Assembly: GCA_017560205.1 (NCBI GenBank)
Contig: JAFYOL010000096.1
Location: forward strand, 1-32,690
Source of the DNA: Erysipelotrichaceae bacterium
GTDB lineage: Bacteria; Bacillota_I; Bacilli_A; Erysipelotrichales; Erysipelotrichaceae
Direction of reading: 5' to 3'
Length of the DNA stretch: 32,690 bases
The position numbers were made by a program, and so were the translations under genes. How positions within the stretch are numbered: position 1 is the first letter of the stretch; every line of letters begins with the position of its first letter. The notes below the pieces were generated by a model. It did no database searches. It worked only from the letters and a program-made list of their open reading frames with translations, and was not told where the DNA came from. Below are positions 3,647-27,344 of the stretch, piece by piece.

Positions 3647-4570
3647 ATGGGATACAAAGAAATACTTTTCAGTAAAAACGGAATAGCAACATATACGCTC
3701 GCAAGAGAGTTCATTAAGTATCATGTAGGAGATAAGATTCCTACTGTGTCAGAACTCAGCGAGACTTTTGGTTTAGCACGAGGTACTGTGCAGAATGCAG
3801 TCAAGCTGCTTCAGCAAAGTGATGCGATTCGTATTGAGTCCAAGGGGCATGTTGGCTCTTATCTGATGAAGAAAAACATGACGATTCTTTTGGAGTTTGC
3901 AGGTATTTCTTCTATTGTGGGTGTAATGCCGCTGCCATATTCCAAGCGTTATGAAGGACTTGCATCAGGTCTTCTGGTGACAATGGAAAATCATTACAAC
4001 ATTCCTGCATCCATGGCTTTTATGCGTGGAGCTAAGAATCGCATCAGCATGCTGATTTCAAATCGTTATGATTTTGCGATTATTTCACGTTCAGCAGCAG
4101 AACAGATCATTAAAGAACATGACAACATTCTGATTGTGATGTCTTTTGGAAAAAATTCCTATTTGAGTGAACATGTGATTATCTTCAAGGATGATCAGAT
4201 GAAGGAAATTCAGGATGGCATGAGAGTTGGTATTGATTATGACTCTGTCGATCAGCGTGTGCTGACAGAAAAGGTCTGTGCGGGTAAAAACGTTGAATAT
4301 GTCCATGTGGATTATTCGCGTATTGTAGAGCGCGTCGTCAATGGGGAGATTGATGCGGCAATCTGGAACAAAGATGAAATTATAGAGAAGTTTATGAAAG
4401 TCAATTACACTGGGCTGAATGGATATGACAGTGTAACTGATGAAGCGGTTATGGTTGTCAGCAAAGAGGAATCAGAAATGGTAGAACTTCTTAAAAATAT
4501 TATTGATCCGCAGACTGTTGTGAACATTCAAAAGTTAGTGCTGGAAGGCAAAGTTACACCGAGTTATTAA
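3647..4570 (+). CDS. yhfZ: YhfZ-family transcriptional regulator (winged HTH plus ligand-binding domain)
   Basis: This 307-residue protein has an N-terminal GntR-like winged helix (about residues 8-75, with IPTVSELSETFGLARGTVQNAVKLLQQSDAIRIESKGHVGSYL). A C-terminal YhfZ domain (about 90-305) resembles a periplasmic-binding-protein fold and carries the family stretch MPLPYSKRYEGLASGLL, ending in PSY. The family regulator sits with yhfSTU-php genes in enterobacteria, and the same neighbours follow here. It is therefore the expected controller of the downstream operon, probably acting on the palindrome at 4626-4649. There is no ribosome site ahead of ATG 3647 and no other plausible start nearby. 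Together with the promoter position this suggests leaderless translation. The effector ligand is unknown. Confidence 0.88.
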   Translation: MGYKEILFSKNGIATYTLAREFIKYHVGDKIPTVSELSETFGLARGTVQNAVKLLQQSDAIRIESKGHVGSYLMKKNMTILLEFAGISSIVGVMPLPYSKRYEGLASGLLVTMENHYNIPASMAFMRGAKNRISMLISNRYDFAIISRSAAEQIIKEHDNILIVMSFGKNSYLSEHVIIFKDDQMKEIQDGMRVGIDYDSVDQRVLTEKVCAGKNVEYVHVDYSRIVERVVNGEIDAAIWNKDEIIEKFMKVNYTGLNGYDSVTDEAVMVVSKEESEMVELLKNIIDPQTVVNIQKLVLEGKVTPSY

Positions 4571-4586
4571 TAATTGATAGGTTTAG

Positions 4587-4615
4587 TTGACATTAAGTTT
4601 TGATAGTACTACAAT
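4587..4615 (+). promoter_or_regulatory. consensus sigma-A promoter of the yhf-like operon
   Basis: TTGACA (4587-4592), exactly 17 bases, then TACAAT (4610-4615). This is the best promoter match in the window. The predicted start near 4622 lies just before the palindrome at 4626. Confidence 0.85.
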
Positions 4616-4625
4616 AAAAATAGAG

Positions 4626-4649
4626 CAAAATACAAAATTTTGTATTTTG
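4626..4649 (+). promoter_or_regulatory. perfect 24-bp palindrome, probable operator for the YhfZ-like regulator
   Basis: The half-site CAAAATACAAAA (4626-4637) is followed without a gap by its exact reverse complement (4638-4649). It covers roughly +4 to +28 of the predicted transcript, where a bound dimer would block initiation or early elongation. The site lies 55 bases after the stop of the YhfZ-like gene. No T-rich terminator tail follows, and translation begins 13 bases later, so an operator is more likely than a terminator. Confidence 0.65.
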
Positions 4650-4662
4650 TGACGAGGGGATT

Positions 4663-5043
4663 ATGAGTAAAGAAGTAAAGTGTTACAAATGTGGGAAAGT
4701 ACACGATTTGACATATAAGACTGTTAGGCAGACCATCAGTTGTTCACACTGCCATGCACATATGACATTTGATTTGAAATCGATTCGTAAACTGAAAATC
4801 ATGCGTTATCTGTTTGTGGTAATTATTGTTTCTGCACTGATGCTGGGATTTAAGCAGGTAGAGACATTGAACAGCTATGTGACACTCATTCTGACATGTA
4901 TGGGTGCGATGGTGTTCTCTTTGTGGTCTGATCGTCTTTGTCTGTATGCAACTTATCGATTCATGAATGTGAATTATGTTGAGTGTCATCCGGAAGACAA
5001 AAGAAAAAACACAAAGCCTAATCAGAATAAAAAAAGGAGATAG
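4663..5043 (+). CDS. small zinc-ribbon membrane protein of unknown function
   Basis: This is the first gene of the operon, 126 residues, with an AGGGG ribosome site. The N-terminal 35 residues hold two CxxC pairs (Cys7/Cys10 in CYKC and Cys27/Cys30 in CSHC), which should bind one zinc. Two hydrophobic segments follow (about 48-63 and 71-89), then a strongly basic C-terminal tail (PEDKRKNTKPNQNKKRR). The zinc ribbon and tail would both lie on the same side of the membrane, probably inside. I do not recognise a named family, and nothing equivalent is in the E. coli yhf operon as I know it. Its place at the head of the operon, four bases before the PRD gene, suggests a membrane-linked sensing or assembly role, which is inference. 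Confidence 0.75.
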   Translation: MSKEVKCYKCGKVHDLTYKTVRQTISCSHCHAHMTFDLKSIRKLKIMRYLFVVIIVSALMLGFKQVETLNSYVTLILTCMGAMVFSLWSDRLCLYATYRFMNVNYVECHPEDKRKNTKPNQNKKRR

Positions 5044-5046
5044 AAT

Positions 5047-5424
5047 ATGGATTTCACAGAAAGATTGGAAATGTTTTTGGAAGGTGAAATGATCACCGTT
5101 GATGATGTAAGAAATGTTAATAATATCTTGGATATGTTCAAGGAAAAGTATGGGGTTACTTTGACTGAAGAAAATGCATCTACATTTGTTTCTCATGTAT
5201 GTGCTGCATTTTATCGCTACTCTGCAGGAGAGGAAATTGATCCGCTTCCTGAAGAAGTAGTGAGTGAAATTGCTTCACAGCCAACTTATGAGTTGTCTGT
5301 TGAAGTGTTTGAAAATATTATGAAAGTAATCGAAAAGCCTTTTAGCGAAGTAGAAAGAGGCTACGTATTACTTCATATAAACAACTTAATTCAGCTTTTA
5401 AAAAGCGAAGGGGAATGGAATTAA
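5047..5424 (+). CDS. yhfY: stand-alone PRD-domain protein (YhfY-like)
   Basis: This 125-residue protein consists almost wholly of one PTS regulation domain. Conserved histidines are visible as His50 (FVSHVCAAFYRYSAGEEIDPLP) and His110 (GYVLLHINNLIQLL), the usual spacing for PRD phosphorylation sites. There is no DNA-binding or RNA-binding domain, as in E. coli YhfY, whose gene also lies in the yhf cluster. PRDs are normally phosphorylated by HPr or EIIB proteins of the phosphotransferase system, so a free PRD could relay PTS status to a partner such as the YhfZ regulator or the YhfT transporter. That partner is not shown by sequence. AAAGGAG precedes the ATG, and the gene is tightly spaced after the zinc-ribbon gene. 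Confidence 0.8.
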   Translation: MDFTERLEMFLEGEMITVDDVRNVNNILDMFKEKYGVTLTEENASTFVSHVCAAFYRYSAGEEIDPLPEEVVSEIASQPTYELSVEVFENIMKVIEKPFSEVERGYVLLHINNLIQLLKSEGEWN

Positions 5425-5455
5425 GTTACAAAACAATTAGTAAAGGAGAAGAAAA

Positions 5456-6766
5456 ATGGAAGGAATTATTACTAGTTTTGAATTTCCGCTGTGGGCTAGA
5501 ACAGTCGTTCTGGTAATGATCTGTGCTTGGGCATCTCTGTTGTCACACAAGTGCATTTCTAACTTTAACGATGGTGCTAGACCTGTATTCCCAGAATTGA
5601 TGGAAGGCCGCATGTCTCGTGCTGAATTCGCTGTCGTTGTTACTGGTATGGGATTCGGTTGGGTACTCGCTGGGTTCTCTCAGTGGCTCGGTACTGGGCT
5701 GATTGCATGTCACTTGACTCTGATCGCTACTGACTGCTTGGGTGCTTGGTCTCCTAATAAGTGGGTTGCTCTGGGTATTGGTGCTGGTTACGGTCTGCTT
5801 TGCGCATTCGGTACAGAAGCTATCAATGCTATGTTCACAGCTCTGCCTCATAACTTCTTGAACGACTTGACTAATATCTCTACACCTACACTGCCAATCT
5901 TCTGTATGTTCCCTGCAGTTGCGATTGCTGGTCAGTTTGGTGCTAAAGAAGGTATTACTACTGGTGTTATTGAAGCTATCGTTTACATTATCTGCACTAT
6001 TCTTGGAAGCGTTACAATCGGTTCTATCAAAGTCAGCCTGTATCCATATACATTCGCTATGCTGGCTGGTATGATCTGCCTGATCGTTTATGCTGTTAAG
6101 AAGGGTAATGAATCTGGTTCAGTTGAAACTGATGAAGAAGAAGAAAATATGTTCTCTAAGAACGCTGCTCGCATCAAGTCTAACTGGAAATATCTGTGCG
6201 TACAGGGTGCTCTGAACGCTCTGGGTATCAAGATTCTGGCTCAGGCTTATCAGCCATATGTAATCAGTGCTGCTGTATTGGCAAATGACATGATGCCATT
6301 CTACATTGCAATGGTTGGTGTTATCATCGCCTTCATCCCACTGATCGTTTCTACATCTCTGGCAACTGGTGTTTACCAGGCTGTAGGTTTGACTTCAGTT
6401 ATGCTGTTTGGTGCTCTGGCTCCAACTTGGTGGCTGGCTCCAATCTTCGGTTTCGTTGCAGAATTCGTAGAAATCCAGCTGGTTGGTATGCTTGGTAAGC
6501 TGCTGGCTAAGTTCCCTGAACTGTCTAAGAGTGGTGACCACATCCGTGCTGGTATGAGCGCAACTCTGGGTCTGGCTCTGACTATCGGTGCATTCCTGGC
6601 TGCTAACGCAACTTGGGGTGTTGTAGGTATCATGATCGTTGGTGGCTTCTACGCTCTGAACGAAGTAACTGGTAACAGACTGCCTAAGACAGCTGTTGGT
6701 CCTTTCGGTGCTGTAGTAGTTGGTATCGTATACAACATCGTACTGTTCCTGGGTCTTCTGGGTTAA
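5456..6766 (+). CDS. yhfT: YhfT-family membrane transporter
   Basis: This 436-residue polytopic protein has about 11-12 hydrophobic segments and a central charged loop (about 222-235, SVETDEEEENMFSK) separating two halves, matching the length and layout of E. coli YhfT. The YhfT family is a predicted solute transporter with no proven substrate. It is followed after 35 bases by YhfU, its constant partner. Codons are heavily biased to GCT, GGT, CTG, ATC, AAC and TTC, unlike the surrounding enzyme genes, which points to very high expression. The ribosome site AAAGGAGAAG lies seven bases upstream of the ATG. A strong hairpin after YhfU suggests that YhfT/YhfU are made in larger amounts than the enzymes beyond it. 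Confidence 0.88.
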   Translation: MEGIITSFEFPLWARTVVLVMICAWASLLSHKCISNFNDGARPVFPELMEGRMSRAEFAVVVTGMGFGWVLAGFSQWLGTGLIACHLTLIATDCLGAWSPNKWVALGIGAGYGLLCAFGTEAINAMFTALPHNFLNDLTNISTPTLPIFCMFPAVAIAGQFGAKEGITTGVIEAIVYIICTILGSVTIGSIKVSLYPYTFAMLAGMICLIVYAVKKGNESGSVETDEEEENMFSKNAARIKSNWKYLCVQGALNALGIKILAQAYQPYVISAAVLANDMMPFYIAMVGVIIAFIPLIVSTSLATGVYQAVGLTSVMLFGALAPTWWLAPIFGFVAEFVEIQLVGMLGKLLAKFPELSKSGDHIRAGMSATLGLALTIGAFLAANATWGVVGIMIVGGFYALNEVTGNRLPKTAVGPFGAVVVGIVYNIVLFLGLLG

Positions 6767-6801
6767 TCTTTAATAATTAAATTATTTAGGAGAGTGTAAA
6801 A

Positions 6802-7182
6802 ATGTTAAAACTGGAAGTTTGTGGCTTGGGTGCTACAAAAACAACAGATATTATCAAAACGAAGTTTGCAGGTCAGGTTGAAGTTATCAACGATGCTGAC
6901 AGAATTGCAGTTCGTAAGGTAAAGAACGGCGAAGCAGATTATTATCTGGGAAGCTGTGAAACTGGTGGTGGAGCTTCTCTGGCTGCTGCTTTCGCGGTTT
7001 TAGGATTTAAGAACTGCCTGACTGTTTCTCGTCAGGGTATGATTCCTGATGAAAAGAAGATTCGTCACATGGTTTATGGCGGAACTCACAAAGCATTCGG
7101 TTATGTTCATACACATACTGAAAAAGTTGTTCCAGCATTAGTACAAGCATTGCTTGATAAAGCTGAAGGAAAGCCTGAATAA
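6802..7182 (+). CDS. yhfU: YhfU-family protein (DUF2620)
   Basis: This 126-residue soluble alpha/beta protein has a glycine-rich N-terminal loop (EVCGLGATKTTDI, residues 5-17) and the family stretch DYYLGSCETGGGASLAAAFAVLGF (about 47-70). In the known yhf cluster YhfU always accompanies YhfT, and both are uncharacterised. The first strand-loop with Cys7 resembles the phosphocysteine loop of PTS EIIB proteins, but I cannot show homology, so this remains a hypothesis. The gene follows yhfT closely with an AGGAGAG ribosome site and is followed 14 bases later by a strong terminator-like hairpin. Confidence 0.85.
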   Translation: MLKLEVCGLGATKTTDIIKTKFAGQVEVINDADRIAVRKVKNGEADYYLGSCETGGGASLAAAFAVLGFKNCLTVSRQGMIPDEKKIRHMVYGGTHKAFGYVHTHTEKVVPALVQALLDKAEGKPE

Positions 7183-7196
7183 GGAATAATTCATTA

Positions 7197-7230
7197 GGGC
7201 ATCAAGTTGTACTTGGTGCCCTTGTTTTTT
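7197..7230 (+). terminator. strong hairpin with U-tract between YhfU and Php (probable partial terminator)
   Basis: The stem GGGCATCAAGT (7197-7207)/ACTTGGTGCCC (7211-7221) is 11 bp with one G-T wobble, has a 3-base loop and is followed by TTGTTTTTT. By shape this is a rho-independent terminator. The genes beyond it clearly belong to the same set and I see no promoter between, so it probably lets part of the transcription through. Confidence 0.75.
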
Positions 7231-7254
7231 AAAAATGGTTGCGGGAGAAAATAT

Positions 7255-8166
7255 ATGATTAGAACGGTATTGGGCGATATTGAAAAGACTGAATTTGGTA
7301 AGACAATGTGTCATGAGCACTTCATTATTGACTTGGACAAAGTGCGTCATGATGGAATTTCAATGATTGAAACAGTGGAAGAAGTTATTCCAGAAATTGA
7401 AATGATGATGGATCTTGGTGTTGAAGCTGCAATTGAAGTGACAACGATTGATCTTGAAAGAGATGTATTGAAGTTGAAAGAAATCTGCGAAAAGACTGGA
7501 TTGAAAATGGTTTGTTCAACAGGCTATTATCTGTCACAGTTCCATCCTGAATGGCTGAATGATGCAACTGTTGAGGAAATTGCAGAAGTATATATAAAAG
7601 AATTGACTGAAGGTATTGATAATACTGGAATTAAAGCTGGTATTATTGCGGAAATCGCATCAGGACCTAAGTCATTTGTAGGAAATGAAAAGAAGATTCT
7701 GGAAGCTGCAGGTCTTGCAGCTGCTAAGACTGGATGTGCTGTCAGCACTCATACTGGACGTTATACAGCAGTTGAAACAATTGAAACATTGCTGTCATAC
7801 GGTATGAATCCAGATAAGATTATTATTGGTCATCAGGATTTGATCAATGACAGTGAATATCATCTGTCTTTGTTGAAGTATGGTGTCAACATTGCGTTTG
7901 ATACTTGCGGTAAGGTCAATTATATGGCGGATGAAATTCGTGCTGAAAATATGCTGAAGATTATTCGTGCTGGCTATGGTGATCACATTATGGTCAGTGA
8001 TGATGTTTCAAGAAGAACATATTTTGTTTCACATGGCGGCGTAGGTTATATTGCTGCTTACAAGACTGTACTTCCTTTATTGAAGGAATATGGTGCAACG
8101 GATGAAGATATCCGTAAGATTACAACAGATAATCCAGCTCGAATCCTTGATAACGACTGGAAATAA
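7255..8166 (+). CDS. php: phosphotriesterase-homology protein Php, first copy
   Basis: This 303-residue amidohydrolase-superfamily barrel keeps the dinuclear metal ligands of the Php/PTE family: His20 and His22 (CHEHF), the bridging acid Glu133 (IIAEIASG) in place of the carboxylated lysine of true phosphotriesterase, His166 (STHTGRY), His193 (IGHQD) and Asp250 (VSDD). E. coli Php, from the equivalent operon, has the same Glu bridge and no known physiological substrate. Relatives hydrolyse lactones or phosphorylated sugar lactones. ATG 7255 is preferred because GGGAG precedes it. An open frame extends 16 codons upstream but would translate through the terminator hairpin. It lies in one run with YhfX, the amidase, YhfS and YhfW. 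Confidence 0.9.
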   Translation: MIRTVLGDIEKTEFGKTMCHEHFIIDLDKVRHDGISMIETVEEVIPEIEMMMDLGVEAAIEVTTIDLERDVLKLKEICEKTGLKMVCSTGYYLSQFHPEWLNDATVEEIAEVYIKELTEGIDNTGIKAGIIAEIASGPKSFVGNEKKILEAAGLAAAKTGCAVSTHTGRYTAVETIETLLSYGMNPDKIIIGHQDLINDSEYHLSLLKYGVNIAFDTCGKVNYMADEIRAENMLKIIRAGYGDHIMVSDDVSRRTYFVSHGGVGYIAAYKTVLPLLKEYGATDEDIRKITTDNPARILDNDWK

Positions 8167-8184
8167 AGAAAAGGCGGTGTTCTG

Positions 8185-9351
8185 ATGTTTCTTGAAAAGG
8201 TACAGGAAAACAATAGACCTCTGGTGGAGTATGCATTTGAACTGCAGCAGAAAGGTTTGATTTTACCGGATACATATGTTTTAGACTATGATGCAATCAT
8301 GGAAAATGGAAAAAGCATGAAGGATGCAGCTGAACCTTTAGGGATTAAACTGTATTTCATGCTGAAACAGATTGGACGTAATCCTGAGATTGCCAAAGGT
8401 CTGATGGAAGTTGGGTTTGATGGCGTTGTTGCAGTGGACTTTAAAGAAACACTGGTGATGATGAAAAACGACGTTAAACTGGGAAATATCGGTCATCTGG
8501 TTCAGGTTCCAAAGGCAGCACTGAAAGAAGTTGTCAAAGCTCAGCCTGAAGTCATGACAGTGTATTCCTATGAAAAGATTCTGGAAATCAATGAAATCGC
8601 AAAAGAACTGAACATGGTACAGCCTTTGTTGATTCGTGTCAATGATACAGATTCAGCACTGTATTCGGGTCAGGTTGGTGGATTCTTGATTTCAGAACTT
8701 GAAGAATTGCTTAATAAAATTGAAACATTAAGCAATGTAAAAGTAGGTGGATTGACAGTGTTCCCTGCACTTTTGTTTGATGGAAAGAAAAATGAAATCG
8801 TTCCAACAGACAACTATAAAGTTCTGCAGCGTGCCATGGCCATCACAGAAAAGCTGGGTTATAAAGATCTTCTGATCAACATGCCATCTGCAACATGCAC
8901 TGCATCAATTCCACTGATTAAGGAACTGGGTGGAAACAATGGTGAACCAGGACATGGTCTGACAGGGACAACACCTCTTCATAAGGTTACTGATCAGAAA
9001 GAACGTGTTGGTTATGTTTATGTAAGTGAAGTATCTCATAACTATCTGGATAAGTCATATTGCTACGGTGGTGGACATTATCGTCGTGGTCATATGGAGT
9101 ATGCACTGGTTGGTACTTCATTGGAAAATGCAGTGACAGCACGTGTTGAAGCACCTACGATGGAATCCATTGACTATCATTATGAACTTGAAGGTAATTT
9201 CAATGTTGGTGATGCAGTTGTCATCTGTGCACGTACACAGGTATTTACGACAAGAAGTCATGTTGCCATCGTGAAAGGATTAAGCACAGGAAAACCTGAA
9301 CTGACAGGTATTTATGATAGTTTTGGGGAACCTGTGAATTTGAAGTGGTAA
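8185..9351 (+). CDS. yhfX: YhfX-family PLP enzyme (alanine-racemase-like fold III)
   Basis: This 388-residue protein has a racemase-type N-terminal barrel: LPDTYVLDYDAIMENGKSM (28-46), then Lys61 in YFMLKQIGRNP as the probable Schiff-base lysine, and a C-terminal beta domain. The family motif GGGHYRRGHMEYALVG lies at about 294-309. YhfX proteins are placed with alanine racemase and D-threonine-aldolase-like enzymes but have no proven reaction. The PLP lysine suggests racemisation, elimination or aldol cleavage of an amino-acid-like substrate. The gene starts 18 bases after php1, and its stop is six bases before the amidase gene, so it is firmly part of the operon. Confidence 0.87.
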   Translation: MFLEKVQENNRPLVEYAFELQQKGLILPDTYVLDYDAIMENGKSMKDAAEPLGIKLYFMLKQIGRNPEIAKGLMEVGFDGVVAVDFKETLVMMKNDVKLGNIGHLVQVPKAALKEVVKAQPEVMTVYSYEKILEINEIAKELNMVQPLLIRVNDTDSALYSGQVGGFLISELEELLNKIETLSNVKVGGLTVFPALLFDGKKNEIVPTDNYKVLQRAMAITEKLGYKDLLINMPSATCTASIPLIKELGGNNGEPGHGLTGTTPLHKVTDQKERVGYVYVSEVSHNYLDKSYCYGGGHYRRGHMEYALVGTSLENAVTARVEAPTMESIDYHYELEGNFNVGDAVVICARTQVFTTRSHVAIVKGLSTGKPELTGIYDSFGEPVNLKW

Positions 9352-9357
9352 TCAGCT

Positions 9358-10326
9358 ATGAAGGGTAATTATGAAAAACAGCATCGTCTTGCGCTGCATA
9401 ATCCATATGGATCTGTAGTGAAAGTACTTGATGCAAAAGAAGATGATCTTCTGGTGGGAATCAAGAACGTAGCATCGATTCCAAATACGTTGATGCACAA
9501 ACTTGAACCTCATGGATTTTCACTTCATACAATTGATAAAAAATCACAGCTTGCAGGTCGAGCTGTGGATACAGAACTGATTAATCCAATTACTGGACAT
9601 TACATGTCAGGATCATCTTCTGGTACAGCATTGAATGTGTTTGCAGGTATCAATGATCTGGGAATTGGAAATGATGGCGGAGGCAGCGTACTGGCTCCTG
9701 CTATGTGTGTAAATATTTACGGTTTTATTTCAAGACTGATTGAAAAAGACCGACAGCAGAAAGCGAAAGCCAATACAGATGGTATTGTTGCAGGGAATTC
9801 ACTGGGATTTCTGGCACGTGATCGCGAAATTCTGTTTAAAGCCATTGAAGTGGCTACTGGAGTAGTGAAAGCTGAAGATGCTGGTGTTGTCTGGACAGAC
9901 AAGCAGTATCCTGGCATTGATTCAGAAGTGGTTGAAGTGATGGATGCCAATGCACCAAGAGGTCCATTGACAGAATATCTGAAAGAAACACTGAAGAAGT
10001 GCGATGTTCTGGTTGTGACAGAAGGTCCTGTGGATCTGCATGGATTTGGTGATTCATTGTTTGGTCATTTTGATGAACGAACAAAAGCAATCCAGATGGA
10101 GGCAAACAAAGGTTATGTGCGTGTATGCAACATCGCCAATGCAACTGCACTTGCGATTCCACAGACTGGATTGGGAATGGCGACTTTGTTGATGTGTGAA
10201 AGCACAGAAGAAAAAGTTGCGAAACTGCTCAAACTGAGCGAAAAAATTGAACATGTACATGATGAACTCATTGAACGTTATTTCCTGGATCTGGACAATT
10301 ACTTCAATGAAGGTTATCAGATTTAA
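9358..10326 (+). CDS. minimal amidase-signature enzyme associated with the yhf-like operon
   Basis: This 322-residue protein shows the Ser-cisSer-Lys apparatus of the amidase signature family. Lys36 sits in LVGIKNVASIPNT. Ser86 in MSGSSSGTALNVFAGI is the cis-Ser candidate, and Ser110 in GIGNDGGGSVLAPA is the nucleophile candidate. The 24-residue Ser-Ser spacing matches fatty-acid amide hydrolase and GatA. The Lys-Ser interval is about 50 residues instead of about 75, and total length is well below the usual 450-500, so two stretches are missing. No stop or frameshift interrupts it, and the C-terminal half keeps VLVVTEGPVDLHGFG and NATALAIPQTGLGMATLL, so it reads as an intact compact variant. 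The start has only a poor ribosome site and relies on coupling to YhfX. I know of no counterpart in the E. coli operon. Confidence 0.8.
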   Translation: MKGNYEKQHRLALHNPYGSVVKVLDAKEDDLLVGIKNVASIPNTLMHKLEPHGFSLHTIDKKSQLAGRAVDTELINPITGHYMSGSSSGTALNVFAGINDLGIGNDGGGSVLAPAMCVNIYGFISRLIEKDRQQKAKANTDGIVAGNSLGFLARDREILFKAIEVATGVVKAEDAGVVWTDKQYPGIDSEVVEVMDANAPRGPLTEYLKETLKKCDVLVVTEGPVDLHGFGDSLFGHFDERTKAIQMEANKGYVRVCNIANATALAIPQTGLGMATLLMCESTEEKVAKLLKLSEKIEHVHDELIERYFLDLDNYFNEGYQI

Positions 10327-10338
10327 GGGGGAAAACTT

Positions 10339-11442
10339 ATGGAAGCATATCCTTTGGAAAGTATTAGTGTTAGACAGGCGATGCAGAAACAATTCAGACT
10401 GGTTGAATGTGCAATGCATCACTTTGAAGGCAGTGAATTTCTGACTCGTGGTGATTTAGGGGTTCATCAGCCTGAAAATCAGCCAATCACAACAATGAAG
10501 GCTGAAAAGGCAATTGCAGAATTCTTTGGTGCTGAAGACTGCATTTTAGTGCGTGGCGCTGGAACTGGTGCAATTCGTTATGGTCTGACTTCAATGATTA
10601 AGGCAGGTCAGAAAATGCTGGTGCACGATGCTGCAATCTACTCAACTACAGTAACCACTGTTGAAATGCTGGGATTGGACATCGTAAAGGCAGATTTCAA
10701 TGATTTGAATGAAATTGAACGTGTGATGAATGAAAATCCGGATATCGTATGCGCTCTGGTTCAGTACACACGTCAGAAACTGGATGATCGTTATGACATG
10801 GGTGAAGTTCTGCAGAAAATCAAATCCTGCAAAGATATTCCAATTCTGTGTGATGACAACTATGCTGTATTGAAAGTGGACAAGATCAGCTGCGAATTGG
10901 GTGCGGATCTGTCATGTTTCTCAACATTCAAGCTTCAGGGGCCTGAAGGCATTGGTGCTGTTGTAGGTAAACATGAATACATCGCAAAAATCAGAAAAAT
11001 GCATTATTCAGGCGGCTGCCAGACTCAGGGTTGGGAAGCTCTTGAAGTGCTCAGAGGTCTGGTTTATGCTCCAGTGATGCTGGCAATTGCAGCGGAAACT
11101 GGTGAAGAAGTGCTTAAGCGCATTAACGAAGGTGAACTAGCAGGCGTTAAGAAAGCATATCTGGCTAATGCACAGTCAAAAGTTCTGCTGGTAGAATTTG
11201 AAGAACCAATCGCAAAACAGGTTCTGGTTGAAGCTGAAAAGATGGGTGCTCTGCCTAATCCGGTAGGTGCAGAAAGCAAATATGAATTTGCCCCTCTGTT
11301 CTATCGTGTTTCAGGTACATTCCTGAAGACAGACCCAACATTGGCATCACGCATGATTCGTATCAATCCAAATCGTGCAGGTGCTGATACTGTTATGAAC
11401 ATTCTGAAGAAAAGCGTTGCGGCTGTTTCTGAGGTGAAATAA
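10339..11442 (+). CDS. yhfS: YhfS-family PLP-dependent enzyme (fold I), first copy
   Basis: This 367-residue fold-I PLP protein carries a cofactor phosphate-cup motif RGAGTGAIR (72-80), the acidic pair in ILCDDNYAVLK (Asp172/Asp173) that contacts the pyridine nitrogen, and Lys198 in CFSTFKLQGPEGIGAVVG as the Schiff-base lysine. It resembles E. coli YhfS in length and in its position next to YhfW. The family is related to cysteine-desulfurase/SelA-like lyases and aminotransferases, but its reaction is unknown. GGGGG precedes the ATG. The stop is followed immediately by the YhfW start, so the two are translationally coupled. Confidence 0.87.
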   Translation: MEAYPLESISVRQAMQKQFRLVECAMHHFEGSEFLTRGDLGVHQPENQPITTMKAEKAIAEFFGAEDCILVRGAGTGAIRYGLTSMIKAGQKMLVHDAAIYSTTVTTVEMLGLDIVKADFNDLNEIERVMNENPDIVCALVQYTRQKLDDRYDMGEVLQKIKSCKDIPILCDDNYAVLKVDKISCELGADLSCFSTFKLQGPEGIGAVVGKHEYIAKIRKMHYSGGCQTQGWEALEVLRGLVYAPVMLAIAAETGEEVLKRINEGELAGVKKAYLANAQSKVLLVEFEEPIAKQVLVEAEKMGALPNPVGAESKYEFAPLFYRVSGTFLKTDPTLASRMIRINPNRAGADTVMNILKKSVAAVSEVK

Positions 11443-21326: not shown

Positions 21327-22139
21327 ATGGAGAAGTATACAGTGGGACAGATTGCAAAGGCAATGGGAGTTTCTGCGCAGACACTTCGTCATTATGAATC
21401 ACTGGGATTGATCAGCTCCATGCGAAATGACGAAAATCAGTATCGTACCTATTCTCTAGATGATACTCGCATTTTATTTATGATTTCTATTTATCGTTCG
21501 ATGGGATTTTCATTACCTAAGATAAAACAGATGCTCAAAGATATGAATGAGAAAGACGTAATTTCTTCTTTTGATGAAAGGCTTCGTGAGGTTGATGCGG
21601 AAATTCGTACGCTCGAACTTTTAAAATTTGAACTGGAACGATATCGACAAGGCATCGAAAATTCATTCGAAAATGTAGGAAAATATTGGATTGAAGACAA
21701 AGGCCATAAAATGGTTTCTGTTATGAAATCCGGTAGTGGTATGTCTTTGGATAATGACAAGGATAATGAACTGGTAGAATACCAGAAACTGGCACCTCAT
21801 GTCCGTCAAGGATTTGTCATTTCTAAGGACAGTTTTAAAGAAAATGCTGATTTTGATTATCAATATGGAGTATTGGTTTCAGATTCGATCGCAAGGCAGA
21901 TATTATCTGAGGAAGAATTAGAAAAATACATGATTTCTATTAAAGGTCCTATTGCAAAAACAATCATTCGTACCAATGGTGAACTTCTCTCAAAAGAAAC
22001 ATTTAAGAGTTTTTTTGAGTGGATAGAGATGCAAGGGTATGAAATTGTCTCAGACTTATATGGAACTGCTCGATATCATGCGTACTACCAACAGGAGACA
22101 ACACTCTTTGAGTTTTTGGTTTCTGTACGTATGAGATAA
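21327..22139 (+). CDS. MerR-family regulator with C-terminal effector domain
   Basis: This 270-residue protein starts with a classic MerR winged helix (YTVGQIAKAMGVSAQTLRHYESLGLISS, residues 4-31, then NQYRTYSLDDTRILFMISIYRSMGFSL). A dimerising helix follows (about 75-115) and then a roughly 150-residue C-terminal domain that looks like a GyrI/BmrR-type small-molecule pocket. There is no metal-binding cysteine cluster, so a metal sensor is unlikely; an organic ligand is more probable. Directly downstream lies a promoter with the 19-bp spacer and dyad typical of MerR targets, in front of the flavoprotein gene. That gene is therefore the likely regulated target. Confidence 0.88.
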   Translation: MEKYTVGQIAKAMGVSAQTLRHYESLGLISSMRNDENQYRTYSLDDTRILFMISIYRSMGFSLPKIKQMLKDMNEKDVISSFDERLREVDAEIRTLELLKFELERYRQGIENSFENVGKYWIEDKGHKMVSVMKSGSGMSLDNDKDNELVEYQKLAPHVRQGFVISKDSFKENADFDYQYGVLVSDSIARQILSEEELEKYMISIKGPIAKTIIRTNGELLSKETFKSFFEWIEMQGYEIVSDLYGTARYHAYYQQETTLFEFLVSVRMR

Positions 22140-22154
22140 AATTCACAAAAAAGA

Positions 22155-22185
22155 TTGACCTTACAATTGTTGTAAGGTTTATTTT
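22155..22185 (+). promoter_or_regulatory. MerR-type promoter/operator of the flavoprotein gene
   Basis: TTGACC (22155-22160), a 19-base spacer, then TATTTT (22180-22185). The perfect dyad ACCTTACAA (22158-22166)/TTGTAAGGT (22170-22178) fills the spacer. An overlong 19-bp spacer with a dyad of ACCTTA/TAAGGT type is the signature of promoters activated by DNA distortion by MerR proteins. The dyad could also fold as a hairpin, but its tail (TTATTTTATT) is a poor U-tract. Confidence 0.75.
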
Positions 22186-22206
22186 ATTGGCAAGGAGGAA
22201 AGAACT

Positions 22207-24333
22207 ATGAAAAAGTTTTTTATGCTTCTTCTGGCTGGTTTGATGGCTGTTTCTGTAGCAGCTTGCTCAACTAAACCAACAGAAGAAAAAATCTACACAG
22301 CAGGTACATACACTGCAACTGCAGCTGGCTTTGGTGGTGATGTAACTGTTACTCTGACTGTAAGTGATACTGCAATCACAGCTGTTGAAATCGTTGGCGC
22401 TCAGGAAACTGAAGCTATCGGTGGTGCAGCTCTGGAAACTCTGGCCACAGCAATCAAAGACGCAAACAGCGTTGAAGTTGATGTTGTATCTGGTGCTACA
22501 GTAACAAGCAATGCTGTTCTGGCTGCTGCTAAGAAGGCATGTGATCAGGCTATGGGTGTTGCGCCAAGCAAGACTGCTTTGACTGATGGTACATACACAG
22601 CTACAGCTGTTGGTTACAGCTGGACTGGTATGATGACTGGTGAAGTTAAGATTGAAAATGGAGCAATCGCTTCTATTACAATCACTGAAGAACATGATAG
22701 CGATACAGGTGAAATCGCTAAGACTGCACTGGATCTGCTGCCTGGCAGAATCGTTGCAAATCAGTCTTTGGCTACTGATGCAATCTCTGGCGCAACTGTA
22801 ACTTCTAATGGTATCAAGGATATCGTTGCTCAGGCTATAGAAATGGCTGGCGGAAAGTCAACTGAATGGATGGATGAAGTTGCTAAGGAAACTGACACTG
22901 TTAAACTGGAAGGCTACGACGTTGTTGTAGTTGGTCTGGGTGGTTCAGGTATGCTGTCTTACATGGCTGCTGCTGAACAGGGTGCTACAGTATTCGGTAT
23001 CGAAACAGCTGCTAAAGTTGGTGGTAACTCTACAACTACTACAGGTCCTATGCTGCTGGGTCCAATCAATGATTCTTATGCTGAAGTAAACTTCGCTGAC
23101 AAGGATGAAGTTTACCAGGTATGGATTGATTATGTTGGTTCTGAAGAAAAGGCTGACATCATCAAGGAAGCTGTTTACAACAATGATACTCATATCAAGT
23201 ACTACCAGGATAACTTCGGTTTCGAATTCACTGGTATGATTATGAGCTTTGTACGTCCACAGTGGTCTGCATTCTGGACTCGTTACGTACCAGAAAATGG
23301 TCAGTCTAACATTTTCGGTCCTAACAAGACTAACCAGTATGTTCGTGCTATGGACAAGGCTGTTGCAATGAACGAAAAGAACGACTATGCTCTTGAACTG
23401 ACTGCTGAAGAACTGATCTTCAATGGTGATACAGCAGTAGGTGTTAAGGCTGTTGCATACGATGGAACTACTTATGAAGTATACGGTGATGCTATTATCC
23501 TGGCTACTGGTGGTTACGTTGGTAACGCTGAAATGTGTGAAGAAAACTGGGGTAGAACTCTGAACACTGTTGCTCAGACTACATCTGACGGTACAGGTAT
23601 CAACATGGGTATCTCTGCTGGTGGTGCTACTTACATGCTGGGTGTTGACCCAATGATCCACATCCTGCAGGTCCCTAATATGATCAAGAACAATGATCTG
23701 ACTGCTGATCAGAAGGCTATTTTGTCTGCACTGGCTCTGGTTAAGGGCGAAATGAGCACTAACGTTTATGGTGAAGCTCTCGACCTGACTTTGGCTGAAG
23801 CACAGATTCCTAACTACATGTACTACAACATCTATACTGAAGCTGAACTGAACGATATGAAGACAAATGGTCTGCCTGAAAACGTAAGCAGAGCTACTTC
23901 TATGTTCATGAAGCAGGGTGGAACAATGACTGCTGGTGCTCCAGTAACTGATATGGATACAATCCTTGAAGTTGGTATGGAATACGGTAACGTATTGAAG
24001 GCTGACAGCATCAAGGATCTGGCTGCTCAGATTGGTTGCGATGAAGCAACTCTGGCTGCTACTCTGGGTGAAGACACTACTTACTATGCAGTAATCTGCG
24101 CTGGTTACACTTATGGTTCAGTTGGTGGTCTGGACGTTGATGTAAACATGAACGTTCTGAGAGCTGACGGTACTCCAATTGCTAACCTGTTCGCAGCTGG
24201 TGCTGATTGCCAGGGTGTTGAAAACGTTGAAGGCAAGATCTACACTCCTTGGGGTGGTCAGGCTCAGTCTTGGACATTCACATCTGGTTACCTGGCTGGT
24301 CATGCTGCTGCAGCATACGGTCTGTCTAAGTAA
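22207..24333 (+). CDS. secreted lipoprotein flavin reductase: two FMN-binding domains plus FAD_binding_2 domain
   Basis: This 708-residue protein has a lipoprotein signal (Cys20 after LMAVSVAA). Two tandem FMN_bind domains follow (about 30-117 and 126-215), each ending in the covalent flavinylation motif D-x-x-S-G-A-T (Asp92-Thr98 and Asp191-Thr197), the acceptor site for ApbE. A Rossmann FAD motif VVVGLGGSG (241-248) opens a fumarate-reductase/urocanate-reductase-type domain that closes with IANLFAAGADCQGV. Such proteins take electrons from a membrane donor and reduce an external acceptor. Residues that bind fumarate in characterised relatives seem absent, so the acceptor is probably different. 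Codon use is highly biased, implying strong expression. No apbE gene is in view. Confidence 0.9.
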   Translation: MKKFFMLLLAGLMAVSVAACSTKPTEEKIYTAGTYTATAAGFGGDVTVTLTVSDTAITAVEIVGAQETEAIGGAALETLATAIKDANSVEVDVVSGATVTSNAVLAAAKKACDQAMGVAPSKTALTDGTYTATAVGYSWTGMMTGEVKIENGAIASITITEEHDSDTGEIAKTALDLLPGRIVANQSLATDAISGATVTSNGIKDIVAQAIEMAGGKSTEWMDEVAKETDTVKLEGYDVVVVGLGGSGMLSYMAAAEQGATVFGIETAAKVGGNSTTTTGPMLLGPINDSYAEVNFADKDEVYQVWIDYVGSEEKADIIKEAVYNNDTHIKYYQDNFGFEFTGMIMSFVRPQWSAFWTRYVPENGQSNIFGPNKTNQYVRAMDKAVAMNEKNDYALELTAEELIFNGDTAVGVKAVAYDGTTYEVYGDAIILATGGYVGNAEMCEENWGRTLNTVAQTTSDGTGINMGISAGGATYMLGVDPMIHILQVPNMIKNNDLTADQKAILSALALVKGEMSTNVYGEALDLTLAEAQIPNYMYYNIYTEAELNDMKTNGLPENVSRATSMFMKQGGTMTAGAPVTDMDTILEVGMEYGNVLKADSIKDLAAQIGCDEATLAATLGEDTTYYAVICAGYTYGSVGGLDVDVNMNVLRADGTPIANLFAAGADCQGVENVEGKIYTPWGGQAQSWTFTSGYLAGHAAAAYGLSK

Positions 24334-24515
24334 GCTTTAAGACTTAAACCTTCGGATTTCTCCGAAGGTTTTTCTTTTTGTATTAAGTCTTTTTCTCTTA
24401 AATGATAAATATATTCATTTGATCCATCGGGATAACTGATTCGCATAGCGAAGTAAGTAATCCCTTTTTCTGTTGTCATGTTGATGATGCGTGGTATGGA
24501 ATTTGTGCAGTACAT
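24300..24515 (-). CDS. small hypothetical protein, convergent with the flavoprotein gene
   Basis: This is a 71-residue open frame on the - strand. Support is positional. A GAGGTG ribosome site (24521-24526) lies five bases before the ATG at 24515, and TATACT (24534-24539) sits at the right place for a -10. The peptide contains MTTEKGITYFAMRISYPDGSNEY, which reads like a small soluble domain but matches no family I know. Its last third is translated from the antisense of the flavoprotein terminator and last codons, which is unusual and could mean that the frame is only partly real. The surrounding stretch 24334-24605 holds otherwise only terminators and this promoter. Confidence 0.4.
   Translation of the reverse strand: MYCTNSIPRIINMTTEKGITYFAMRISYPDGSNEYIYHLREKDLIQKEKPSEKSEGLSLKAYLDRPYAAAA
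24346..24377 (+). terminator. intrinsic terminator of the flavoprotein gene
   Basis: Perfect 11-bp stem AAACCTTCGGA (24346-24356)/TCCGAAGGTTT (24361-24371) with loop TTTC and a T-rich tail. Confidence 0.9.
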
Positions 24516-24585: not shown

Positions 24586-24607
24586 AAGACTCACAAACGT
24601 GAGTCTT
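24586..24607 (-). terminator. intrinsic terminator of nrdDG
   Basis: Read on the - strand, a 9-bp stem AAGACTCAC/GTGAGTCTT with a 4-base loop is followed by a run of T. Its first arm overlaps the nrdG stop codon at 24606-24608. Confidence 0.85.
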
Positions 24608-25127
24608 AAAGTTGATATAGAATAACCTGATTTTCTTTAAGTGATTGTTGAACATCAATGATTCTCTGGTTGGAAGAACCTCTGAACTTTAATTTAAGGT
24701 CACGCAGTTCATCAACAAACTTGCCATCTACCAGTACATCATACAGACTGATAAGTGGAAGTGTGAAGTCATACTTCTTTGTCATTTCATTGAGAATCTG
24801 TTGATCAAACAAATATCCTGAATAACACCAGATGGTTTTTTCCGGGTAACGTTCTTTCACTTTCTGAATGAATGGAAGCAGCACTTTCTGATTGCAAGGT
24901 TCCATTGGCTCTCCACCTAACAGAGTAAGACCTGCAATGTAACTTGGACTTAACAGTTCCAGAATCTGTTCTTCAACTTCAGGAGTAAATGGGTTTCCAT
25001 AATTGAAGTCCCATGCTTCTGCATTGAAACAGTTCTTGCAATGATGTGTGCATCCACTGACAAACAAAGAGATTCGAACACCTTGACCATTGGCAACATC
25101 ACAATTTTTAATCGATGCGTAGTTCAT
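24606..25127 (-). CDS. nrdG: anaerobic ribonucleotide reductase activating enzyme
   Basis: This 173-residue radical-SAM protein has the CxxxCxxC cluster motif at Cys26, Cys30 and Cys33 (SGCTHHCKNC), followed by the NrdG hallmark FNAEAWDFNYG and the SAM-binding TLLGGEPM. It uses a 4Fe-4S cluster and S-adenosylmethionine to place the glycyl radical on NrdD. Its start codon shares one base with the nrdD stop (TAATG), so translation is coupled. It is the last gene of the two-gene operon. Confidence 0.96.
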   Translation of the reverse strand: MNYASIKNCDVANGQGVRISLFVSGCTHHCKNCFNAEAWDFNYGNPFTPEVEEQILELLSPSYIAGLTLLGGEPMEPCNQKVLLPFIQKVKERYPEKTIWCYSGYLFDQQILNEMTKKYDFTLPLISLYDVLVDGKFVDELRDLKLKFRGSSNQRIIDVQQSLKENQVILYQL

Positions 25128-27253
25128 TACAGGTGAGTCACCCTAGCCTTGATTTCCTTTGTCTTACCAACGTTCCAGAAGTTTTCTCCCAGATAGCCGC
25201 AAGTTCTGCGTGTTACGTTCATCTTGTGCTTATCTTTGTTGTGGCAGCAAGGGCATTCCCATTCATTGTTGTCATTGATGATGATTTCACCATCATATCC
25301 ACATTCATGACAGAAGTCAGACTTTGTGTTGAACTCTGCATACTGAATGTTGTCGTAAATGAACTTAACGAGTTCTTCCAGAGCTTCCAGATTGTGTCTC
25401 ATGTTAGGAATTTCAACATAAGAAATAGCACCACCAGAGCTGATTGGCTGGAACTGTGATTCAAATTTCAGCTTAGAGAAAGCATCAATGTGTTCACGCA
25501 CATCGACATGATAAGAATTTGTATAGTATCCCTTATCTGTGATGTCTTTGATATCACCAAAACGCTGTTTATCAATTCTTGCGAAGCGATAGCACAAGCT
25601 TTCAGCTGGTGTTCCATACAGACCAAATCCAAGTCCGCTTTCAGCTTTCCACTGTTCGCAAGCCATACGCAGACGCTTCATGACTTTTCTAGCAAACTTT
25701 TCACCTTCAGGTGTAGTCTGTGACTGACCAGTCATCAGAAGAGTTACTTCATACAGACCAATGTATCCCAGTGAAATAGTCGAATAACCATTCTTCAGCA
25801 GAGAGTTGATCTTTTCGCCTGGTTTCAGACGAGCGATAGCACCGTGCTGCCAATGAATTGGCGATACATCAGATGTAACAGACTGAAGTGCATGATGACG
25901 GCACATCAGAGCTTCATGGCATAGTTCAAGACGTTCGCTGAGCAGTTTCCAGAATTTTTCTTCATCTTTATTTGCAAGAATACCAATCTGAGGAAGGTTG
26001 ATGGAAACAACACCCTGATTGAAACGTCCTTCAAACTTGTAGTTGCCATCTGCATCCTGCCATGGAGACAGGAAGCTTCTGCATCCCATTGGTGAGAAGA
26101 CATTGCCTTCATAGTTTTCACGCATTTTCTTTGCGGAAATATAATCTGGGTACATTCTCTTTGATGAACATTCTACTGCAAGATGAGTAATATAATCATA
26201 CTTTCCGCCCTTCAGACAATTATGTTCATCCAGAACATAAATCAGCTTAGGGAAGGCTGGTGTTACATAAACACCTTTTTCATTTTTAATACCTTTAATA
26301 CGCTGTTTCAGAACTTCTGAAATAATCAGTGCAGTTTCTTCGATATATGGATCCTTTTCATCCAACTCAAGGAACAAAGTAACAAATGGGCTCTGACCGT
26401 TTGTAGTCATCAATGTATTGATCTGATACTGAATGGTCTGTACACCTGCAGAAAGTTCACTCTGCAGACGATCATTTACGATAGATTGAATCAGTTCTTC
26501 ACTCATGTCATTGCCATGTTTTGTCTTTAGTTCATTGTAGAACTTTTCTTTTGAAACTCTCAGATATTTACCTAAATGCTTCAGATTGATAGACTGCCCA
26601 CCATACTGTGAACTTGCCACAGAAGCAATAATCTGAGTCATGACTGTACATGCAACCTGGAAACTCTTAGGAGTTTCAATCAGTTTACCATTCATCATTG
26701 TGCCGTTATCAAACATATCTTTAATGTGGATCAGACAGCAGTTGAAGATTGGCTGCAGGAAGTAGTCAGCATCATGGAAATGCAGAACTCCTTCTTCATG
26801 TGCCTTTGAAATTGATTCAGGAAGCAGCAATCTCTTTGTCAGGTCTTTTGAAACTTCACCTGCAATCAAGTCACGCTGAGTTGATGCAGTGACTGCATTC
26901 TTGTTGGAATTTTCATCCATAACTTCCTTATTAGTATGACGAATCAAACCAAGGATTGATTCATCTGTTGTATTCTGCTGACGTACAAGATGTCTTGTAT
27001 ATCTGTACAGCATATACTTCTTTGCCAGTTCGAATTTCTTCATATCCATGAGCTGCTGCTCAATCATGTCCTGAATATCTTCAACCAGCATGCGTTTTTT
27101 GTTCTGGCTTTCTACATAATCAACAATTTCATTAATCTGAGCCTGTGTAACACGAGCTCTTGTAGGAAGGTCAGCATTGGCTTTTTGAATAGCTACGACG
27201 ATTTTACTGCGGTCATAATCGACGCTACGCCCGTCTCTTTTAATTACTTTCAT
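25127..27253 (-). CDS. nrdD: class III anaerobic ribonucleoside-triphosphate reductase
   Basis: This 708-residue enzyme reduces ribonucleotides to deoxyribonucleotides under anoxia. The N-terminal ATP-cone (MKVIKRDGRSVDYDRSKIVVAI, residues 1-90) provides allosteric control. The C-terminal zinc site is formed by CHECGYD and CPCC, and the glycyl radical residue is Gly686 in RRTCGYLGENFW. I chose the ATG at 27253 because GGGGGATGG lies just upstream and the ATP-cone begins there. A further 25 upstream codons are open but contain no domain and run into the regulatory region. Its presence fits an anaerobe. It is divergently transcribed from a Crp/Fnr-family gene. Confidence 0.96.
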   Translation of the reverse strand: MKVIKRDGRSVDYDRSKIVVAIQKANADLPTRARVTQAQINEIVDYVESQNKKRMLVEDIQDMIEQQLMDMKKFELAKKYMLYRYTRHLVRQQNTTDESILGLIRHTNKEVMDENSNKNAVTASTQRDLIAGEVSKDLTKRLLLPESISKAHEEGVLHFHDADYFLQPIFNCCLIHIKDMFDNGTMMNGKLIETPKSFQVACTVMTQIIASVASSQYGGQSINLKHLGKYLRVSKEKFYNELKTKHGNDMSEELIQSIVNDRLQSELSAGVQTIQYQINTLMTTNGQSPFVTLFLELDEKDPYIEETALIISEVLKQRIKGIKNEKGVYVTPAFPKLIYVLDEHNCLKGGKYDYITHLAVECSSKRMYPDYISAKKMRENYEGNVFSPMGCRSFLSPWQDADGNYKFEGRFNQGVVSINLPQIGILANKDEEKFWKLLSERLELCHEALMCRHHALQSVTSDVSPIHWQHGAIARLKPGEKINSLLKNGYSTISLGYIGLYEVTLLMTGQSQTTPEGEKFARKVMKRLRMACEQWKAESGLGFGLYGTPAESLCYRFARIDKQRFGDIKDITDKGYYTNSYHVDVREHIDAFSKLKFESQFQPISSGGAISYVEIPNMRHNLEALEELVKFIYDNIQYAEFNTKSDFCHECGYDGEIIINDNNEWECPCCHNKDKHKMNVTRRTCGYLGENFWNVGKTKEIKARVTHL

Positions 27254-27326
27254 ATTCCATCCCCCATATTCTACTTTGTTTCCGTTTCGGTACGAATGAA
27301 AGTTTAACACGTGAAACGCGTGAAAC

Positions 27327-27344
27327 ATGTTGCAAATGCAACAT
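27327..27344. promoter_or_regulatory. perfect inverted repeat in the nrdD-crp/fnr intergenic region
   Basis: ATGTTGCA (27327-27334), two bases, then its reverse complement TGCAACAT (27337-27344). Read as GTTGC-N4-GCAAC, it has the 5-4-5 geometry of Crp/Fnr-family sites. It overlaps a possible promoter of the divergent regulator (TTGCAA 27330-27335, 16 bases, TAAGAT 27352-27357), which would fit autoregulation. It lies 74 bases from the nrdD start. Confidence 0.6.

Follow-up and report, generated by a model that had tools for sequence, protein, structure and literature searches.

A predicted doubly flavinylated extracytosolic reductase whose acceptor probably differs from fumarate and urocanate

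Among the numerous flavinylated fumarate reductase-like enzymes, many have no known substrate (PMC8238504). The gene at 22207-24333 of the window (the whole stretch of 32,690 nucleotides analysed here, contig C77 of a 1.9-Mb Erysipelotrichaceae genome that is 93% complete) raises the same question, namely which acceptor its product reduces. The reductase is real and well conserved, with an ordinary architecture and an unusual active site.

Architecture and relatives

The reading frame is intact and joins in one chain a secretion signal, SGAT-type FMN_bind domains and a FAD_binding_2 domain, the make-up of flavinylated fumarate reductase-like enzymes, which are described as FMN_bind combined with PF00890 (PMC8238504). 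The features of the gene are as follows:

22192-22198, + strand: ribosome-binding site AAGGAGG, read from the sequence
22207-24333, + strand: FMN/FAD reductase lipoprotein of 708 aa, predicted to be doubly flavinylated (open reading frame, Pfam, relatives)
22207-22266, + strand: predicted signal peptide with lipobox V-A-A-C and lipidated Cys20 (from the translation)
22327-22542, + strand: FMN_bind domain 1, with DVVSGATVTS at residues 92-101 (Pfam, motif)
22498-22500, + strand: Thr98, predicted FMN site of FMN_bind domain 1
22621-22842, + strand: FMN_bind domain 2, with DAISGATVTS at residues 191-200 (domain search, motif)
22795-22797, + strand: Thr197, predicted FMN site of FMN_bind domain 2
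22918-24219, + strand: FAD_binding_2 domain (Pfam; model with pLDDT 92 and pTM 0.90)
24346-24371, + strand: intrinsic terminator 3' of the reductase, 11-bp stem and T run

Judged from its sequence, the protein is filed as flavinylated fumarate reductase-like, and by class it would be neither a fumarate or urocanate reductase nor a 3-ketosteroid dehydrogenase (KSTD). The two SGAT motifs reported by the first-pass annotation are both present, as DVVSGATVTS and DAISGATVTS. Its statement that most relatives carry one such motif holds for the wider class (in this genome two FMN_bind domains occur in two of the six FMN/FAD reductases, the query included), but not for the query's own clade, in which two motifs are present in nearly all complete members; double flavinylation is the rule there and does not set the query apart.

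Among the close kin is an Erysipelotrichaceae MAG at 82% identity, and orthologues at 65-66% identity are found in Holdemania massiliensis, H. filiformis and Dielma fastidiosa. Relatives at 44-64% belong mostly to Clostridia and Oscillospiraceae MAGs, together with one MAG labelled Lactobacillus. The clade with YTPWGG or YSPWGG, of 26 members, is recovered with SH-aLRT 100, and a wider set of 30 sharing Y-x3-GG (YVTYGGA in four) with SH-aLRT 99. On the enzymes of H. filiformis and D. fastidiosa, the literature searched gave no match.

Active site of the FAD domain

The query was aligned with its clade relatives, with Fcc3 (letters of 1d4c) and with the five other FMN/FAD reductases of the genome under four MAFFT settings. 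In all four, Fcc3 R381 falls on Leu511, the G-x-R-F arginine (Arg394 in Fcc3) on Ala524, His504 on Tyr636, His505 on Gly637 and Arg402 on a gap; E378 falls on Ala508 or Ile505 depending on the setting, and R545 on Tyr679 or Gly676 but never on an arginine. The subclade of the query has a deletion at the Fcc3 stretch FMNEITT-R402-D, and the longer clade members have no conserved arginine there. The positions concerned are:

23659-23661, + strand: His485 (in PMIHILQ), sole invariant histidine of the FAD domain, candidate equivalent of Fcc3 His365 or proton donor
23779-23835, + strand: segment L525-Y543, shortened against the Fcc3 Arg402 loop (FMNEITTRDKASAA), with no conserved arginine
24112-24114, + strand: Tyr636, at the place of Fcc3 His504, tyrosine in 26 of 26 members
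24241-24258, + strand: Y679-T-P-W-G683-G, in place of GANRLGG, matching Tyr487-x3-Gly491 of KSTD

The strings GEMSTNVYGEAL, YTYGSVGGL and GKIYTPWGGQ, on which the earlier expectation of a non-fumarate site was built, all occur as quoted. The histidine before GG-L is indeed replaced, by the invariant Tyr636, and G-x-N-R-L-G-G by GKIYTPWGGQ, which reads Y-[TS]-P-W-G-G-Q throughout the 26 members; as the replacements are common to the whole clade, they are not sequencing noise. The description of G-x-R-F/NE as the proton-donor region needs correction, since Arg402 sits eight residues beyond it (GNRFMNEITT-R402-D in 1d4c). Catalytic arginine and histidines at shifted positions had been named as the finding that would overturn the expectation. 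For the arginines this does not apply: the FAD domain has no invariant arginine among the 26 clade members, and arginine is most frequent at Arg652 (21/26) and Arg380 (20/26), a result that hardly depends on the alignment. The only invariant basic residues of the domain are His485, Lys315 and Lys503. His485 could replace Fcc3 His365; the His504 place is held by Tyr636.

The Arg402 acid and the E378/R381 relay of fumarate reductases are thus absent, as is the clamp of His365, His504 and Arg544/545, His485 being a possible counterpart of His365. The Arg411, His520 and Arg560 of urocanate reductase are likewise lacking, as judged by the absence of an invariant arginine and by equivalence through Fcc3 positions. 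TIGR01813 (flavocytochrome c, cut-off 285 bits) does not appear among the query's 25 best NCBIfam matches, the highest of which scores 67 bits. That match, VprA (vinyl phenol reductase), was rejected as a named identity because 67 bits lies far below its cut-off of 600. The 5beta-reductases of PMC12238238, of the 2,4-dienoyl-CoA reductase type, belong to a different family and were also set aside. The missing arginines in the alignments are a strong argument against a dicarboxylate clamp, and with the clamp and the Arg402 acid both missing the acceptor would not be a dicarboxylate. The expectation of an acceptor other than fumarate or urocanate is therefore supported, the catalytic set of Fcc3 and UrdA being gone from the clade alignment; the acceptor probably differs from both and is perhaps an unsaturated ketone. 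That the protein is a non-fumarate extracytosolic reductase is considered very likely.

The suggestion of a ketone comes from comparison with KSTDs, the solved structures of which have FYPGPG or AYPGAG at the GANRLGG place. In these enzymes Tyr487 and Gly491 (4c3x chain numbering minus 20) drive keto-enol tautomerisation of the substrate (PMC5348764). Against a profile of annotated KSTDs from plasmid records, Tyr679 aligns with Tyr487 and Gly683 with Gly491, so that the Tyr487-x3-Gly491 carbonyl anchor is matched by the query. A tyrosine also stands at the Tyr679 place in two paralogues, on contigs C154 and C66. Counted from the following GG, KSTD Leu447 occupies the place of Fcc3 His504 and query Tyr636. 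Of the KSTD proton acceptors Tyr318 and Tyr119, the former, eight residues past the G-x-R-F arginine, corresponds to Fcc3 Arg402; the query has a deletion at this place, and its active site thus differs from that of a KSTD as well. The NCBIfam equivalog for 3-ketosteroid dehydrogenase gives 55 bits against a cut-off of 788.

A whole-protein model (pTM 0.74, with a low-confidence pocket) was superseded by a model of the FAD domain built from 38 sequences, with pLDDT 92 and pTM 0.90. KSTD has the highest Foldseek TM-score for the latter (0.68), ahead of cyclohexanone dehydrogenase (0.63-0.65), UrdA (0.64) and Fcc3 (about 0.60). A gap of 0.04 is small, and by E-value UrdA, not KSTD, comes first. 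The alignment of the Y-x3-G motif and the KSTD TM-score together lend modest support to a predicted ketone-type pocket.

Regulation, paralogues and electron supply

The reductase gene is preceded by a regulator and a promoter of its own:

21327-22139, + strand: MerR-family regulator of 270 aa, directly upstream, ending 67 bp before the reductase
22155-22185, + strand: predicted MerR-type promoter/operator, TTGACC-(19-bp dyad TTACAATTGTTGTAAGGTT)-TATTTT

MerR-activated promoters typically have a 19-bp spacer occupied by a dyad, and here the dyad lies in the 19 bp between -35 and -10 with a merR gene adjoining. The MerR-type operator was found in none of 100 shuffles and at a single site in the genome when up to two mismatches were allowed. 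It is conserved 5' of the orthologue in a same-genus genome, in Dielma and in a Hungatella MAG, each with a MerR gene, and in three other lineages a MerR homologue sits at the equivalent position; in Holdemania and some others a divergent LysR gene takes its place. The length and N-terminus of the regulator resemble BmrR/EcmrR, and no Pfam domain was matched in its C-terminal 160 aa. That the gene has its own regulator, and that the operator occurs once in the genome, suggests one inducing substrate. In more than 20 loci only regulators, and no metabolic gene shared between species, were found next to the reductase, and gene context therefore names no substrate. Two genes at 24606-27328 (- strand), convergent with the reductase, resemble an anaerobic ribonucleotide reductase and its activating enzyme.

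The query is the most divergent of the six FMN/FAD reductases and has the lowest FAD_binding_2 score. The paralogue on contig C149 keeps every compared Fcc3 residue and scores 402 bits for TIGR01813 against the cut-off of 285; fumarate reduction is thus already covered in the genome. The C2 paralogue keeps Arg402, two histidines and the NR motif, the C66, C154 and C90 paralogues have lost Fcc3 residues in other ways, and TIGR01813 is the first or second match for all five. By alignment, loss of fumarate residues is common in the class, and it is the particular combination in the query that appears to mark its clade. The C66 enzyme (7522-9627, within 5648-9627) is a second predicted doubly flavinylated reductase; it adjoins amidohydrolase/deaminase-like genes and an MFS-like transporter, with a divergent MerR gene at 9757-10770, a context that could name the substrate of that reductase.

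Codon adaptation was computed against 36 ORFs of the str/S10 region, and 115 ORFs were ranked, a sample biased by the choice of contigs for flavoproteins. The high codon bias reported for the query is borne out, its index of 0.879 (rank 2 of 115) exceeding that of EF-Tu (0.866). The further claim that the query is the main respiratory route does not follow, as bias is equally high in all six reductases, which rank 1, 2, 3, 6, 8 and 9, with C149 the highest at 0.910, and equal or exceed most translation-machinery genes. Flavin respiration as a whole, rather than the query alone, is accordingly a main activity.

As for the source of electrons, contig C115 carries rnfB (short), A, E, G, D and part of C, and its RnfG (4318-5511) has three FMN_bind domains. 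Contig C68 ends in rnfC, which adjoins an ApbE gene, one of two in the genome. Multi-flavinylated RnfG has been proposed to send electrons to extracytosolic acceptors (PMC8238504), and the triple-FMN RnfG hints at an outward branch for electrons in this Rnf complex; from it we infer a link between Rnf and the query. A UbiA-family prenyltransferase, detected in 14 of 14 control genomes, had no match in the 93% complete genome, which makes a quinone-fed EET route less likely. The RnfB at C115 2578-2883 has only 101 aa; it keeps the N-terminal anchor and a single Fe-S motif but lacks the ferredoxin domain that RnfB usually has. At C181 7356-10431 an ApbE gene lies beside a singly flavinylated lipoprotein of 321 aa and two rhodanese-like lipoproteins, possibly a separate flavin electron chain.

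Proposed acceptor and comparison with known systems

The reading we favour, with moderate confidence, is an extracytosolic reductase, fed by Rnf and induced by its acceptor, that acts on a carbonyl-conjugated alkene. The protein would act as a lipid-anchored terminal reductase of anaerobic respiration, to which ApbE would attach FMN at Thr98 and Thr197. Electrons would leave the membrane, most likely from the Rnf complex with its triple-FMN RnfG, and pass from FMN to FMN to the non-covalent FAD and as hydride to the acceptor. Tyr679 and the backbone NH of Gly683 may hold the carbonyl oxygen, as Tyr487 and Gly491 do in KSTD, and carbonyl anchoring of this kind would direct hydride to the beta carbon of a C=C bond conjugated with the carbonyl, as in an enone. 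The pocket may be aromatic, lined by Tyr636, Trp682 and Trp689 with a lid bearing Trp353 and Trp357, and the proton donor would be a tyrosine or histidine, with Tyr636, Tyr540/543 and His485 as candidates. Expression would be switched on by the neighbouring MerR regulator, the presumed inducer being the acceptor or a related compound.

The same respiratory architecture could serve an acceptor that is not an enone, such as a vinyl-phenol, a propenyl-phenol or another aromatic alkene, or a carboxylate bound without the help of arginine, with Y-x3-G playing a structural part. We consider this somewhat unlikely: VprA is the best NCBIfam match, many aromatic residues are conserved and the Tyr679-place tyrosine recurs in paralogues, yet the VprA score is close to those of many other families, and the exact Y-x3-G spacing with a small residue at the His505 place follows the KSTDs. 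A fumarate or urocanate reductase with shifted catalytic residues is very improbable, since the FAD domain has no invariant arginine, the Arg402 loop is deleted and TIGR01813, prominent in all five paralogues, is outside the query's best 25 matches, although the fold is identical, UrdA leads by E-value and His485 may stand for His365.

Operation as an oxidase or dehydrogenase like KSTD, an extracellular ketone feeding electrons into the flavin chain, would agree with the top TM-score match being a dehydrogenase, but it is decidedly improbable: in this class it is reductases that use covalent FMN domains (PMC8238504, PMC10882135), six such enzymes, among them an orthodox fumarate reductase that is equally codon-biased, are encoded in the genome, and Tyr318, the KSTD base, has no counterpart in the query. 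It seems improbable as well that the protein is a flavin shuttle with no specific small-molecule acceptor, passing electrons at the surface to iron, free flavins or quinones; two FMN sites and lost catalytic arginines suit an electron carrier, and multi-flavinylated proteins have been proposed as long-distance carriers (PMC8238504), but residues of the FAD domain are strongly conserved across the 26 proteins, down to about 45% identity, and the gene has a dedicated regulator with a single genomic operator.

Reduction of a carbonyl-conjugated alkene, if correct, could extend to the speculative and rather unlikely proposal of a distinct class of gut respiratory reductases with a KSTD-like carbonyl anchor on the outside of the cell, through which Holdemania, Dielma and relatives respire host steroid or bile acid enones or plant enones via multi-flavin Rnf. 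The clade is well delimited and present in the named gut species Holdemania filiformis, H. massiliensis and Dielma fastidiosa, and by codon bias the reductase is apparently highly expressed in the window's organism. The dedicated MerR switch could be used as a substrate sensor in screens, and the identity of the acceptor would tie energy conservation in these bacteria to a compound of the host or the diet.

Among known systems, Fcc3 and the Listeria FrdA type share the fold and the flavin chain with the query and are represented in its genome by the C149 paralogue, but Fcc3 R402, R381, E378, H504 and R544/545 are all missing from the query. UrdA of Shewanella oneidensis (6t85-6t88) is similar in combining FMN_bind with FAD_binding_2, in being membrane-anchored and respiratory and in the idea of an aromatic lid; it differs in having one FMN, the acid Arg411, His520 and Arg560 (PMC10882135), whereas the query lacks those arginines and has a second FMN site. 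KSTD (4c3x) and cyclohexanone dehydrogenase (8am8) share Y-x3-G, the small residue at the His505 place and the best TM-scores, but they are dehydrogenases without FMN domains, and their base Tyr318 is absent here. The bile acid 5alpha-reductases BaiP and BaiJ of gut Firmicutes combine FMN and FAD domains with enone reduction, BaiP reducing a 3-oxo-delta4 bile acid (PMC9645264); compared by description only, they are, at 563 aa, too short for two FMN_bind domains and the FAD domain of the query. Cgr2 of Eggerthella, also compared by description only, has a [4Fe-4S] cluster and a cytochrome partner in place of FMN domains, but like the query it is a secreted FAD_binding_2 reductase without the fumarate residues, and it reduces an unsaturated lactone (PMC5953540).
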